DNA of 49,810 nucleotides from Bacillota bacterium (GTDB lineage Bacteria > Bacillota > Sulfobacillia > JACIYH01), in the NCBI GenBank assembly GCA_014360055.1, contig JACIYH010000013.1, forward strand, positions 1 to 49,810. Direction: 5' to 3'. Positions within the stretch are counted from its first letter, which is position 1, and each line of letters begins with the position of its first letter. The notes below the pieces were generated by a model. It worked only from the letters and a program-made list of their open reading frames with translations. It did no database searches and was not told where the DNA came from. Both the position numbers and the translations under genes were made by a program. Positions 42,560 through 47,053 of the stretch are shown one piece after another.

Positions 42560-42792
42560 CCCTCCCGACGCCCTGCGGCCTGCTGTACCTTATGCACGGG
42601 GCGGTGGTTCTCCTGCCCGGGCCCCCGCCGGTGGCCGGCCCGGCGTGCGCCGCCTGCGTGGGCGGTCGTCGCCGGGGCGGCACGTCGCATGCCATGGCGG
42701 GTGGCCGACCCGGCGGCACGTTGCGTGCCTCGGCCGGTGGCTTCACGCAATGGGGCGGGGATGGCATAATAGGGCAAGGAGGTGATGGCAGG

Positions 42793-43473
42793 GTGCGGCT
42801 CATTTCCGAAAGGGACGCGGCCACGCTGCGCAAACGGTTCGCCGACCTGACGGGCCCGGTGAAGCTGGTGATGTTCACCCAGTCCGAGTCGGGCTTGAGC
42901 GTCCCCGGGCACGAGTGCGCGTACTGCCGGGAGACGCGCATGCTGGTGGAGGACCTGGGCGAGGTCTCCGACGGCCGCATCGGGGTGGAGGTGCACGACT
43001 TCATCCTCGACAGGGAGGAGGCCTCCCGGTACGGGGTCGAGCGCATCCCGGCGGTGGTCGTGCTGGGGGAGCGCGACCACGGCATACGCTACTACGGCAT
43101 CCCCGCCGGGTACGAGTTCGCCTCCCTGGTCGAGGATATCCTCGATGTGTCGGCACAGAAGAGCGGATTGCGCCCGGAGACGGCGGCGGCACTGCGCGCG
43201 TTGCCCAGAGACGTACACATACAGGTCTTCGTTACCCCCACCTGACCGTACTGCCCGCGTGCGGCCAGGTTGGCCCACAAGATGGCGCTGGAGAGCGATA
43301 GGGTGCGGGCGGACGTGGTGGAGGTATCTGAGTTTCCCCATCTTGCCCAGCGTTACCACGTCTTCGGGGTGCCCAAGGTGGTCATCAACGAGCGGGTCCA
43401 GTTCGAAGGCGCGGTGCCCGAGAAAATGTTCCTGAGCTACGTGCTGCAAGCCGCCGGCGTGGAGGAATCCTGA
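42793..43473 (+). CDS. Glutaredoxin-like protein disulfide oxidoreductase with in-frame UGA (selenocysteine candidate)
   Basis: A two-thioredoxin-fold PDO of 226 residues if TGA at 43243-43245 is decoded. Domain 1 starts LISERDAATLRKRF, has its CxxC in ECAYCRET (Cys42, Cys45) and cis-Pro in RIPAVVV. Domain 2 should carry CPYC after QVFVTPT; the DNA instead reads TGA-CCG-TAC-TGC, giving U151-P-Y-C154. The rest (PRAARLAHKMALESDRV, FGVPKVVI, FEGAVPEKMFL) is well conserved against archaeal PDO to a natural TGA at 43471. A hairpin follows the TGA. GTG 42793 has AAGGAGGTGAT upstream. PDOs shuffle thiols and disulfides; a selenol would make domain 2 more reactive. The alternative is a Cys-to-stop mutation yielding a 150-residue product. 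Confidence 0.82.
43259..43278 (+). promoter_or_regulatory. Candidate bacterial SECIS hairpin
   Basis: GTG-C-GGCC / GGCC-CAC pairs over 7 bp with one bulged C (43262) and a 5-nt loop AGGTT (43267-43271). The loop starts 21 nt after the TGA. Bulge on the 5' arm, short upper stem and a GGU in the apical loop recall the E. coli fdhF SECIS, whose loop begins AGGUC. Placement just downstream of the codon inside the coding region is as required for SelB in bacteria. Confidence 0.6.
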
Positions 43474-43553
43474 CCGGCTACCCGCAGGCGGCGGGCATCG
43501 AGGAGTCCCGACCGCGAGTCTCAGGAGGCCGGTCGTGGAGGAATCCTGACCGG
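43459..43553. repeat. 19-bp direct repeats after the PDO gene
   Basis: GTGGAGGAATCCTGACCGG occurs at 43459-43477 (covering the PDO stop) and again at 43535-43553, 76 bp apart, with a degenerate copy near 43498. The repeats copy the 3' end of the gene into the spacer, suggesting slippage or local duplication. Confidence 0.75.
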
Positions 43554-43557
43554 TGAA

Positions 43558-43634
43558 CTCCGGCGCCGCCGGAGCAAGCCAGTTCGGTAGTGCGCCGCCC
43601 CGTCCTGGTACACACTAGGGCGGGGTGGTTTTTT
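43558..43634 (+). terminator. Hairpins and T-run between PDO and the first flavoprotein gene
   Basis: A perfect hairpin CTCCGGC-GCC-GCCGGAG (43558-43574) is followed by CCGCCC (43595-43600) pairing with GGGCGG (43618-43623), then six Ts at 43629-43634. The second stem plus T-run looks like an intrinsic terminator. The flavoprotein's TTG start (43633) lies in the T-run and its GGGGTGG ribosome site overlaps the stem, so attenuation is possible. Confidence 0.55.
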
Positions 43635-44802
43635 GGCCGAACCCAGGGTTACCGTGGTGGGAGGCGGCCTCGGAGGCACGCCCCTGGCCAACGGCCTGGC
43701 GCGGCTCGGGATCTGCCAGGTCACGCTGGTGGACTTGCTCGGGCAGCACATCTACCAGCCCGGCTTTCTCTACGTGCCCTTCGGCCGTGTCAAACCCGCC
43801 TCGCTGGTGCGCGACCTGCCGACGGTCCTTCATCCGCGCGTGCAACTGGTGGTGGGCGAGGTGGAGGAGGTGGACGCCGGGGCACGGGCGGTCCACCTGG
43901 CCGACGGACGCGTGATCTCCTCGGATTGGCTGGTGCTGGCGCCGGGGGCGGCATATGATCCCGGCCTGGTGCCGGGGTTCGCCGGCAACGTGCACCACTT
44001 CTATTCCCTGGAGGCCGGCCTGGACCTCATGGCCGAGTTGCAGCGCTTCCGGGGCGGGGACGTGGTGGTGGGCATCACCACCCTGCCTTACAAATGCCCG
44101 CCGGCCCCCCTGGAGTTCACCCTTCTCCTGGACGATTTCTTGCGGAAGCGCGGCCTGCGCGGCCGTTACCGCCTGACCTTTGTAACCCCCCTGCCCCAGC
44201 TCATAGGCATGAAATCGCTCTGCGAGGCCTATCAACCCATCTTCAACCGCCGGGGAATCGCGGTTGCCACTCGCTTCACGGTGGAGGAGATCGACGCGCG
44301 TCGCCGCCGCCTGATGTCCCAGGAGGGCGGGGAAGTGCCGTATGACCTGGCCATCCTGGTCCCGCCCCACCGGGGAACGAAGATGGTGCGCCGCTCGGGA
44401 CTGGGGGATCGCCAGGGGTGGATACCCACCGACCGTGAGACCCTGCGGGTGGTGGGGTACGAGCACGTGTACGCCCTGGGGGACGCCACTGACCTCCCCG
44501 TCTCCAAACACGGGGCGGGTGCCCACATGCAGGCCGAGGTGGTGGCCCGTAACCTGGCCGCGGAGATAGGGGGTCGAGAGCCCGGCTGGGAGTATTCGGG
44601 CCGGGTGTTCTGTATCAGCGATACCGGCGCCGGTAAGGGCAGCCTGGTGCACTACAGCTATGACCGGCCACCGGCGCCCCCCACGCCCCTGCCCGTTTTT
44701 CGCTGGGCCAAGCTGGCTACCGGTGCCCTGTACTGGCGGCTGGTCCCGCGCGGGTTGCTGCCGGTGCACGGATACCGCCGCCGCCGTGCTACCGCGCGGT
44801 GA
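43633..44802 (+). CDS. Sulfide:quinone reductase-like FAD flavoprotein (first copy)
   Basis: 389 residues, FAD-dependent pyridine-nucleotide-disulfide fold of the SQR/FccB group. The N-terminal dinucleotide motif is VVGGGLGGTPLANGLA, the second FAD contact YALGDATDLPVSK. Two cysteines sit where the SQR redox pair is expected: Cys155 in YKCPPAP and Cys327 in RVFCISDTG. The third SQR cysteine is not seen. The C-terminus has only moderate hydrophobic helices for membrane attachment. TTG 43633 is the start. A clear paralogue lies at 45842, and DsrE and TusA lie between them, so it probably oxidises sulfide or a carried persulfide. Electron acceptor unknown. Confidence 0.85.
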   Translation: MAEPRVTVVGGGLGGTPLANGLARLGICQVTLVDLLGQHIYQPGFLYVPFGRVKPASLVRDLPTVLHPRVQLVVGEVEEVDAGARAVHLADGRVISSDWLVLAPGAAYDPGLVPGFAGNVHHFYSLEAGLDLMAELQRFRGGDVVVGITTLPYKCPPAPLEFTLLLDDFLRKRGLRGRYRLTFVTPLPQLIGMKSLCEAYQPIFNRRGIAVATRFTVEEIDARRRRLMSQEGGEVPYDLAILVPPHRGTKMVRRSGLGDRQGWIPTDRETLRVVGYEHVYALGDATDLPVSKHGAGAHMQAEVVARNLAAEIGGREPGWEYSGRVFCISDTGAGKGSLVHYSYDRPPAPPTPLPVFRWAKLATGALYWRLVPRGLLPVHGYRRRRATAR

Positions 44803-44944
44803 AGAGATGCCTGGCTGCATAATTGCACTCCTGCCCGTTGCGGTGTCCGCAGGACGAATGCACTGACCGAGCCGGTGAGAACCGCTGCAAAACGGAACAC
44901 GGACGTGCGTCCTGGCCTGCTCGTGAAGGCGGTCACACCAGGTA

Positions 44945-45001
44945 TTGACTGCCGGGCGGGGCAGGTGGTATCATACTCCTGCAAGCAGTTATTTGCGCAG
45001 G
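44945..45001 (+). promoter_or_regulatory. Promoter and candidate operator of the dsrE-tusA-SQR-arsR operon
   Basis: TTGACT (44945-44950) and TATCAT (44969-44974) with an 18-bp spacer form a strong sigma-A-type promoter in the 224-bp spacer. Just after it, CCTGC (44978-44982) and GCAGG (44997-45001) bracket an AT-rich centre. An operator right after the -10 would suit repression by the ArsR protein encoded last in the operon. Confidence 0.6.
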
Positions 45002-45026
45002 TTACCAAATTAGGGAGGGAGACAGC

Positions 45027-45446
45027 GTGGCGGAGGAGCGGTTTTCCATGGTGGTGTTCTCGGGCACGGTGGATAAGCTCTACCCGGTAGCCATCATGTC
45101 TTCGGGAGCAGTGGCTATGGGCATGGAGGTGGACATCTTCGTGACCTTCTGGGGCCTGCAGGCTTTCCGGAAGGGCAACCCGCGGGAACTGGGGCGGGTG
45201 AGCAAGGACTTCGAAGACCAGGCCGGCGCCATGATGCAGATCATGCAGGAGAAGAATGTGCCCTCCTGGTACGATACCCTGCTCCAGGCCAAGGAACTGG
45301 GGAACGTGCGCGTGCACGCCTGTGCCATGACCATGGACCTGTTCGGCCTCACCAAAGACGACCTGGACCCCATCGTGGACGACGTGGTGGGCGTGGGCGA
45401 GTTCGTGGACCGGGCCAAGGAGGGCAAGGTCACCCTCTTTATCTGA
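45027..45446 (+). CDS. DsrE/DsrF-like sulfur-carrier family protein
   Basis: 139 residues, DsrE2-type. The fold-typical start FSMVVFSGTVDKLYPVAIMS, IFVTFWGLQAFRKG and the conserved cysteine Cys99 in VHACAMTMDLFGL match persulfide-carrying DsrE proteins, which pass sulfane sulfur to TusA. GTG 45027 has AGGGAGGGAGA upstream. The gene heads an operon with tusA 45 bp later. The cysteine placement supports sulfur transfer; the acceptor is inferred. Confidence 0.9.
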   Translation: MAEERFSMVVFSGTVDKLYPVAIMSSGAVAMGMEVDIFVTFWGLQAFRKGNPRELGRVSKDFEDQAGAMMQIMQEKNVPSWYDTLLQAKELGNVRVHACAMTMDLFGLTKDDLDPIVDDVVGVGEFVDRAKEGKVTLFI

Positions 45447-45491
45447 CACCGGATCCGACAGGGGCGGGTCCGAACAGAAAGGGGACGGCAG

Positions 45492-45737
45492 ATGAACGAG
45501 CAGACGGTCAAGGCGGACCGGATCATTGACGCCCGCGGTGCGTACTGCCCCGGGCCGCTAATGGAACTGATCAGGGCGGTTCGCGAAGCCCGGGTCGGCG
45601 AGGTCCTGGAAGTGCTCTCCTCGGATTCCGGTTCCAAGCGCGACATCCCGGCCTGGGCCGAGAAGGCGGGCCACGAAGTGGTGGGCGTGTTCCCCGAGCA
45701 GGGATACGACCGCATCGTGGTGCGCAAGGCGAAATAG
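45492..45737 (+). CDS. tusA: TusA-family sulfurtransferase
   Basis: 81 residues. The family motif CPGP (Cys19 in [17 protein letters not shown]) is present near the N-terminus, with the usual [20 protein letters not shown] region. TusA carries persulfide sulfur between donors such as DsrE or rhodanese and acceptors in tRNA thiolation, cofactor assembly or sulfur oxidation. ATG 45492 has AAAGGGGACGG upstream. Its place between DsrE and an SQR-like flavoprotein favours dissimilatory or detoxifying sulfur handling. Confidence 0.95.
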
Positions 45738-45841
45738 CTGGCATGAGAACGGGGCCGGCCCCCGGGCGGAGGGCTCAATGCGGGCCCATGGGGAATCCCG
45801 GATAAGGCCGGCTCCGTGGCATCATTATGGGGGGAAGAACC

Positions 45842-47053
45842 ATGCGGAACTCAGCGCGGGTGGTCATTGCAGGCGGGGGAACGGGCGGCACCTTGGTGGC
45901 CAACTTACTGGCCCGGCGCGGGGTGGCGGTAACCCTGGTGGATGCCACAGGATGGCACACGTATCAGCCCTCCTTCCTGTACCTGCCTTTTGCCGACAGG
46001 GTGCCCCGCAGCCAGGGGCCGCTTTACAGCAGAAGGGTGTCGACCCTGCTGGACGGGCGCGTGAAGGTGGTGGTGGGCACGGTGACCGGCATTGACCCGG
46101 TGGCCCGCCGGGTGGAGATCGCGGAGGGGGCGAGCCTGCCCTACGACTGGCTGGTACTGGCCACGGGCACGGCCTACTATCCCGACGAGATCCCCGGGTA
46201 CCCGGAGGCCGCTCACCACTTCTATTCCCAGGAGGCCGCCCTGCGCCTGCGGGAGGCCCTGGCTTCCTTCCGCGGCGGCGACGTGGTGGTGGGTGTCACC
46301 ACTATCCCCTACAAGTGCCCGCCGGCACCCCTCGAGTTCACCTTGCTGCTGGACGCCTACCTCAGGAGACGGGGCATCAGGGAGCGGACGCGCATACGGT
46401 TCCTGAGTCCACTGCCGCGCGCGTTCAGCATTGAGCCGGTGTCCGAGATGGTGGCACCCATGATGGAGCGGCGGGGTATTGAGATCTCCACCTTCTTCAA
46501 CACCGAAAGCGTGGATGCGGGGGCGCGGGTGGTGCGGTCCCTGGAGGGGGAAGAGGTTCCCTACGACCTGCTGGTCCTGCTTCCTCCTCACGGGGGAGTC
46601 CCCGCCGTGCGCAACTCCGGCCTCGGCGACCGCAGCGGGTGGATCCCCACCGACCGCCACCTCATGAGGGTGCTGGGGCGGGAGCGCATTTATGCCGTGG
46701 GGGATGCCACCGACCTGCCGGTGTCCAAGAGCGGCGTGGCCGCCCACTTCCAGGCCGAAGCGGTGGTGGCCAACATCTTAGATGAGATGGCAGGGCGGGA
46801 GCCCTCCCACGCCTACACAGGGCGGGTGCTGTGCTTCGCGGAGACGGGACTGGGCCGCGCCACGCTCATCTCCTTCGACTACCAGCATCCACCCCGCCCG
46901 CCCGTGCCCAACCGCGTCCTCCACTGGGGCAAGCTGGCCTTCAATGTGCTATACTGGTACACGGTACCTCAGGGCCGCGTACCCCTGCGGGGCGTGACCA
47001 AAGTGGGGGCGGGCGCACGCCCGGTGGAGGAGGAAGCCCGGGTTGGGCACTGA
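45842..47053 (+). CDS. Sulfide:quinone reductase-like FAD flavoprotein (second copy)
   Basis: 403 residues, paralogous to the flavoprotein at 43633. FAD motif VVIAGGGTGGTLVANLLA, second FAD contact YAVGDATDLPVSKSG and the two cysteines Cys159 (YKCPPAP) and Cys331 (RVLCFAETG) are spaced 172 residues apart, exactly as in the first copy. ATG 45842 is preceded by GGGGGGAAGAA; an upstream ATG at 45827 would remove that site. It follows tusA in the operon and overlaps the ArsR gene by 11 bp. Two related enzymes so close suggest a heteromer or different substrates or acceptors. Confidence 0.87.
   Translation: MRNSARVVIAGGGTGGTLVANLLARRGVAVTLVDATGWHTYQPSFLYLPFADRVPRSQGPLYSRRVSTLLDGRVKVVVGTVTGIDPVARRVEIAEGASLPYDWLVLATGTAYYPDEIPGYPEAAHHFYSQEAALRLREALASFRGGDVVVGVTTIPYKCPPAPLEFTLLLDAYLRRRGIRERTRIRFLSPLPRAFSIEPVSEMVAPMMERRGIEISTFFNTESVDAGARVVRSLEGEEVPYDLLVLLPPHGGVPAVRNSGLGDRSGWIPTDRHLMRVLGRERIYAVGDATDLPVSKSGVAAHFQAEAVVANILDEMAGREPSHAYTGRVLCFAETGLGRATLISFDYQHPPRPPVPNRVLHWGKLAFNVLYWYTVPQGRVPLRGVTKVGAGARPVEEEARVGH

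Follow-up and report, generated by a model that had tools for sequence, protein, structure and literature searches.

The closest described relatives of the gene studied here belong to the TIGR02187 family, whose UxxC form (ABB15282.1) is listed as a predicted selenoprotein (PMC13188914, Table 1; PMC9312934), both papers referring to Kryukov & Gladyshev 2004. This selenoprotein was earlier known as the 'homolog of AhpF N-terminal domain' (Kryukov & Gladyshev 2004; Zhang et al. 2006) and was reported in 2006 in Carboxydothermus hydrogenoformans and Symbiobacterium thermophilum (PMC1794560); the NCBIfam model now carries the name 'PDO_seleno_TRX'. We found no biochemical characterisation of this selenoprotein family in the literature. 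Among proteins of known structure, the protein disulfide oxidoreductases (PDOs) of archaea and Aquifex (1a8l, 1j08, 2ayt, 2hls; SsPDO) are built from two thioredoxin folds, each carrying a redox motif. In S. solfataricus, the main thiol-transferase site of the PDO is the C-terminal one, and thioredoxin reductase supplies the enzyme with electrons from NADPH (PMC7465337); the PDO/TrxR pair is able to reduce the disulfides of oxidised proteins (PMC6211008).

The window, the whole stretch of 49,810 nucleotides of Bacillota DNA that was analysed, contains a PDO gene with a single internal TGA in an otherwise open frame (Table 1). The product has 226 residues in two domains. An earlier note, made from the letters of the window, had placed this TGA where the C-terminal CPYC of a two-domain PDO has its first cysteine, with 76 undamaged codons and a natural stop behind it, and the frame bears out both statements, the 76 being 75 sense codons and the stop. 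The residues around the site read VFVTPT-U-PYCP, with UPYC at residues 151–154. The note's match of these flanks to archaeal PDOs holds as well, and bacterial PDOs match too. In two genomes of the same genus (G001 and G002), the PDO gene has ATG at the site of the window's GTG start, and the end point of the gene is common to all three genus members, past which the sequences diverge. A second copy of the gene end gtggaggaatcctgaccgg (43459–43477) lies 75 bases downstream at 43534–43552; this repeat is absent from G001.

Table 1. Positions of the PDO gene and its associated features in the window.
Feature	Position	Strand	Details
Sec-containing protein disulfide oxidoreductase (PDO) gene, very probable reading	42793..43473	+	GTG start, TGA stop 43471-43473; TIGR02187.2 275 bits; 1a8l E 6e-53
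In-frame TGA, very probably read as Sec	43243..43245	+	residue 151, UPYC
Domain-1 redox motif CAYC	42916..42927	+	residues 42-45
Shine-Dalgarno AAGGAGGTGA	42778..42787	+	good site, read from sequence, 5' of GTG
Sigma-70-like promoter TTCACG-17-CATAAT	42742..42770	+	consensus match only
bSECIS-like hairpin GGCCA-GGU-UGGCC	43263..43275	+	predicted; 22 nt 3' of UGA; not significant for the window sequence alone
Intrinsic-terminator-like hairpin with T run	43594..43634	+	also in G001 and G002

The family assignment was clear from both profile and fold. Residues 6–220 cover positions 2–209 of the 209 in TIGR02187.2, at 275 bits against a cut-off of 185, and the match to the P. furiosus PDO 1a8l has an E value of 6e-53. 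An AlphaFold2 model (17 homologues as input, U modelled as C) showed two thioredoxin-fold units in tandem (pLDDT 93.0, pTM 0.91), each with its redox motif, CAYC at 42–45 and UPYC at 151–154. Foldseek placed 1a8l at the top (TM 0.90), followed by the P. horikoshii, Aquifex and Aeropyrum PDOs and then by AhpF N-terminal domains. The archaeal and Aquifex structures share the architecture of the window protein at TM 0.88–0.91 and 33–43% identity; in the alignment, 1a8l and 1j08 have Cys in the C-terminal motif where the window protein has the putative Sec. The N-terminal domain of AhpF (5h29, 1zyn, 1hyu) has the same tandem thioredoxin fold at 20–26% identity, but there it is part of a flavoprotein, whereas the window protein is free-standing. 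With the TIGR02187 selenoproteins the window protein has the full-length match and the UxxC in common; some Sec members of that family are without the domain-1 CxxC, which the window protein retains, a difference at the level of sequence only.

The presence of TGA or a Cys codon at this site was compared across relatives, and both were seen. The codon aligned with residue 151 is TGA in 11 other members of the class (G001, G005, G008, G014, G018, G019, G024, G025, G026, G033 and G038), so that 12 genomes including the window's have the TGA form and five have the Cys form alone. Within the genus, G001 has TGA at the identical codon of a PDO that is 90% identical, and G002 (locus L014) has TGC in an intact gene. 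In other phyla, 17 of 80 loci, drawn from named genomes of Chloroflexota, Acidobacteriota, Rokuibacteriota, Zixiibacteriota, Thermomicrobiota and others, have TGA at the Sec codon, and the remainder TGC or TGT. A tree of 88 PDO proteins, with the Sec/Cys residue left out, requires a minimum of 15 Sec/Cys changes, at least four of them forced by well-supported branches. As the tree reads, Sec and Cys are repeatedly exchanged in the PDO family, as is usual for selenoproteins, and the TGC of G002, with the SECIS-like hairpin intact, is best taken as a recent exchange in either direction. The earlier note had counted scattered frameshifts and stops in close relatives against a Sec reading; the frames in the genus are intact, and the TGC of G002 is the usual kind of exchange and no refutation. 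One genome of the class, G025 (L016), holds three PDO copies, each with the domain-2 TGA. Two TGA motif matches (L053 and L085, frame 0) were excluded from the PDO counts as small glutaredoxin-like genes. These two, from Anaerolineae, have an in-frame TGA (TTPTUPYC and TTPTUPHC) and lie <5 kb from Cys-form PDO genes.

The genome contains the Sec machinery that the earlier note had proposed to look for, selA, selB, selC and selD. SelA scored 478 bits, SelD (391 bits) is itself encoded with a UGA at the position usual for it, and a tRNA-Sec with a UCA anticodon is present. A contig gap interrupts SelB: its N-terminal part lies on C140 and its C-terminal part on C100, and each is cut off by the end of the contig. 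Across the class, SelA was found in 12 of 12 genomes with a TGA-form PDO vs. three of five with the Cys form only.

The region behind the UGA was assessed against the bacterial SECIS model, which describes a 4–16 bp stem, a 3–9 nt loop with G in the first two positions, a distance of 16–37 nt from the UGA and an MFE of ≤ −7.5 kcal/mol (PMC13188914). The window hairpin fits the geometry of this model with a 5 bp stem, a GGU loop and 22 nt to the UGA. The 5-bp core alone has −6.2 kcal/mol, and the 51-nt fold has −16.8 kcal/mol, which is no better than shuffles (z 0.31 for 43243–43293 alone); compared with synonymous recoding, the hairpin was unremarkable (p 0.36). In the family scan (stem ≥4 bp, loop 3–9 nt with G in the first two positions, spacing 16–30 nt, ≤ −5 kcal/mol), hairpins were found in 25 of 29 Sec forms vs. 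11 of 59 Cys forms (Fisher p 1e-9), and their rank against synonymous recodings of the same peptide differed between Sec and Cys forms in the same direction (Mann-Whitney p 9e-10), both p-values being too small because the tests count related sequences as independent. In several lines the stem letters have changed while the pairing is retained, as in CCAUCCGC/GCGGAUGG of L074 and CCGGCCGC/GCGGCUGG of L063. The Cys-form gene of G002 has a hairpin identical to the window's, and hairpin presence was consequently rejected as evidence for Sec within the genus. Judged by these scans, the hairpin is informative only by comparison across the PDO family. On the SECIS question raised in the earlier note, the geometry fits and such hairpins are enriched among the family's Sec forms, but the window hairpin is not significant by itself.

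By default a TGA codon terminates translation, and together with the TGC in a same-genus species this could point to a chance nonsense mutation that left domain 2 dead and a product limited to the 150-residue N-terminal half. Against such a pseudogene stand the codons behind the TGA. Between the window (L012) and G001 (L013), the 75 sense codons there hold 33 synonymous changes and one non-synonymous change (dN/dS ~0.004), compared with a dN/dS of 0.10 for the codons before the TGA; domain 2 is by this measure under purifying selection, which for practical purposes refutes the pseudogene. The frame is also intact up to the end point common to the genus, and the TGA is not there by chance because G001 and ten other genomes of the class have it at the same codon. 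We therefore regard decay as very unlikely. The window does come from a draft assembly of 141 contigs, where a true TGC could have been misread, but the same TGA was found in many other genomes, among them an independent one whose sequence behind the TGA differs at 32 third positions, making the probability of a sequencing or assembly error negligible. Readthrough, or reassignment of TGA to an amino acid such as Trp, would be compatible with the DNA alone. Yet TGA also terminates the PDO gene and other genes, the site in relatives is Cys and never Trp or Gly, and a UCA tRNA-Sec is present alongside SelA, SelB and SelD, so that decoding as something other than Sec is extremely improbable. Because the TGA is conserved, other relatives have Cys, the downstream codons are under purifying selection, the Sec machinery is complete and a bSECIS-like hairpin is present, the window gene very probably encodes a selenoprotein PDO whose in-frame UGA is read as Sec in the domain-2 active site, as the earlier note had proposed.

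For the function of this selenoprotein PDO, the position of the predicted Sec at the C-terminal thiol-transferase site was considered together with the single TrxB-like gene above the family cut-off in the genome (380 bits). From these we infer a disulfide reductase fed by TrxR. SelB, guided by the hairpin directly behind the UGA, would insert Sec at residue 151. Electrons would pass from NADPH to thioredoxin reductase and on to the PDO, where the domain-2 selenolate U151 would act as the nucleophile attacking substrate disulfides, in peroxiredoxin or other proteins, and C154 would resolve the selenenylsulfide. Domain 1 (CAYC) may assist domain 2. By analogy with the characterised PDOs, work as a disulfide reductase, in this direction and with this partner, is rather likely.

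Alternatively, the same selenoprotein could serve mainly in sulfur transfer, reducing persulfides, and not as a general disulfide reductase. On the same strand 3' of the PDO gene, 43633–47053 holds two SQR-like flavoproteins, a DsrE-family gene (45027–45446) and a TusA-like gene (45492–45737), and the first of these neighbours is retained in the genus, which suggests a possible sulfur link. However, the terminator-like hairpin, conserved in the genus, lies between the PDO gene and these neighbours, and such neighbours occurred at none of the other PDO loci retrieved, the arrangement being seen in the genus only. We consider a main role in sulfur transfer unlikely. The SQR-like flavoproteins are themselves related to NF049943 (the selenoprotein SQR type), below its cut-off.

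The domain-1 CxxC was absent from six of 29 Sec-form PDOs (L020, L025, L026, L028, L079 and L099) vs. one of 59 Cys forms (L027; Fisher p 0.005); L025 is the TGA form of G024. Since two pairs among the six Sec forms are sister sequences, these amount to about four losses. The pattern is only suggestive of Sec in domain 2 relaxing the need for the domain-1 CxxC. It is doubtful that the domain-2 Sec makes the domain-1 dithiol dispensable and that two-site PDOs with Sec have thereby turned, more than once, into one-site reductases resembling the AhpF N-terminal domain; if true, the window protein, with both sites, would represent a Sec form that has not yet undergone the loss.

The earlier note had called a PDO with Sec in its second active site a new flavour of the enzyme. 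This claim fails, since UxxC selenoproteins of TIGR02187 were reported in 2004–2006 and are curated as PDO_seleno_TRX; the window PDO is almost certainly a real selenoprotein and an ordinary one for its family. Standard gene calling would truncate it at residue 150 and lose the main catalytic site. The window gene adds a well-supported member to the TIGR02187 selenoprotein family, and the same-genus Sec/Cys pair that comes with it (G000 and G001 against G002) would allow Sec and Cys to be compared cleanly in naturally occurring PDOs.
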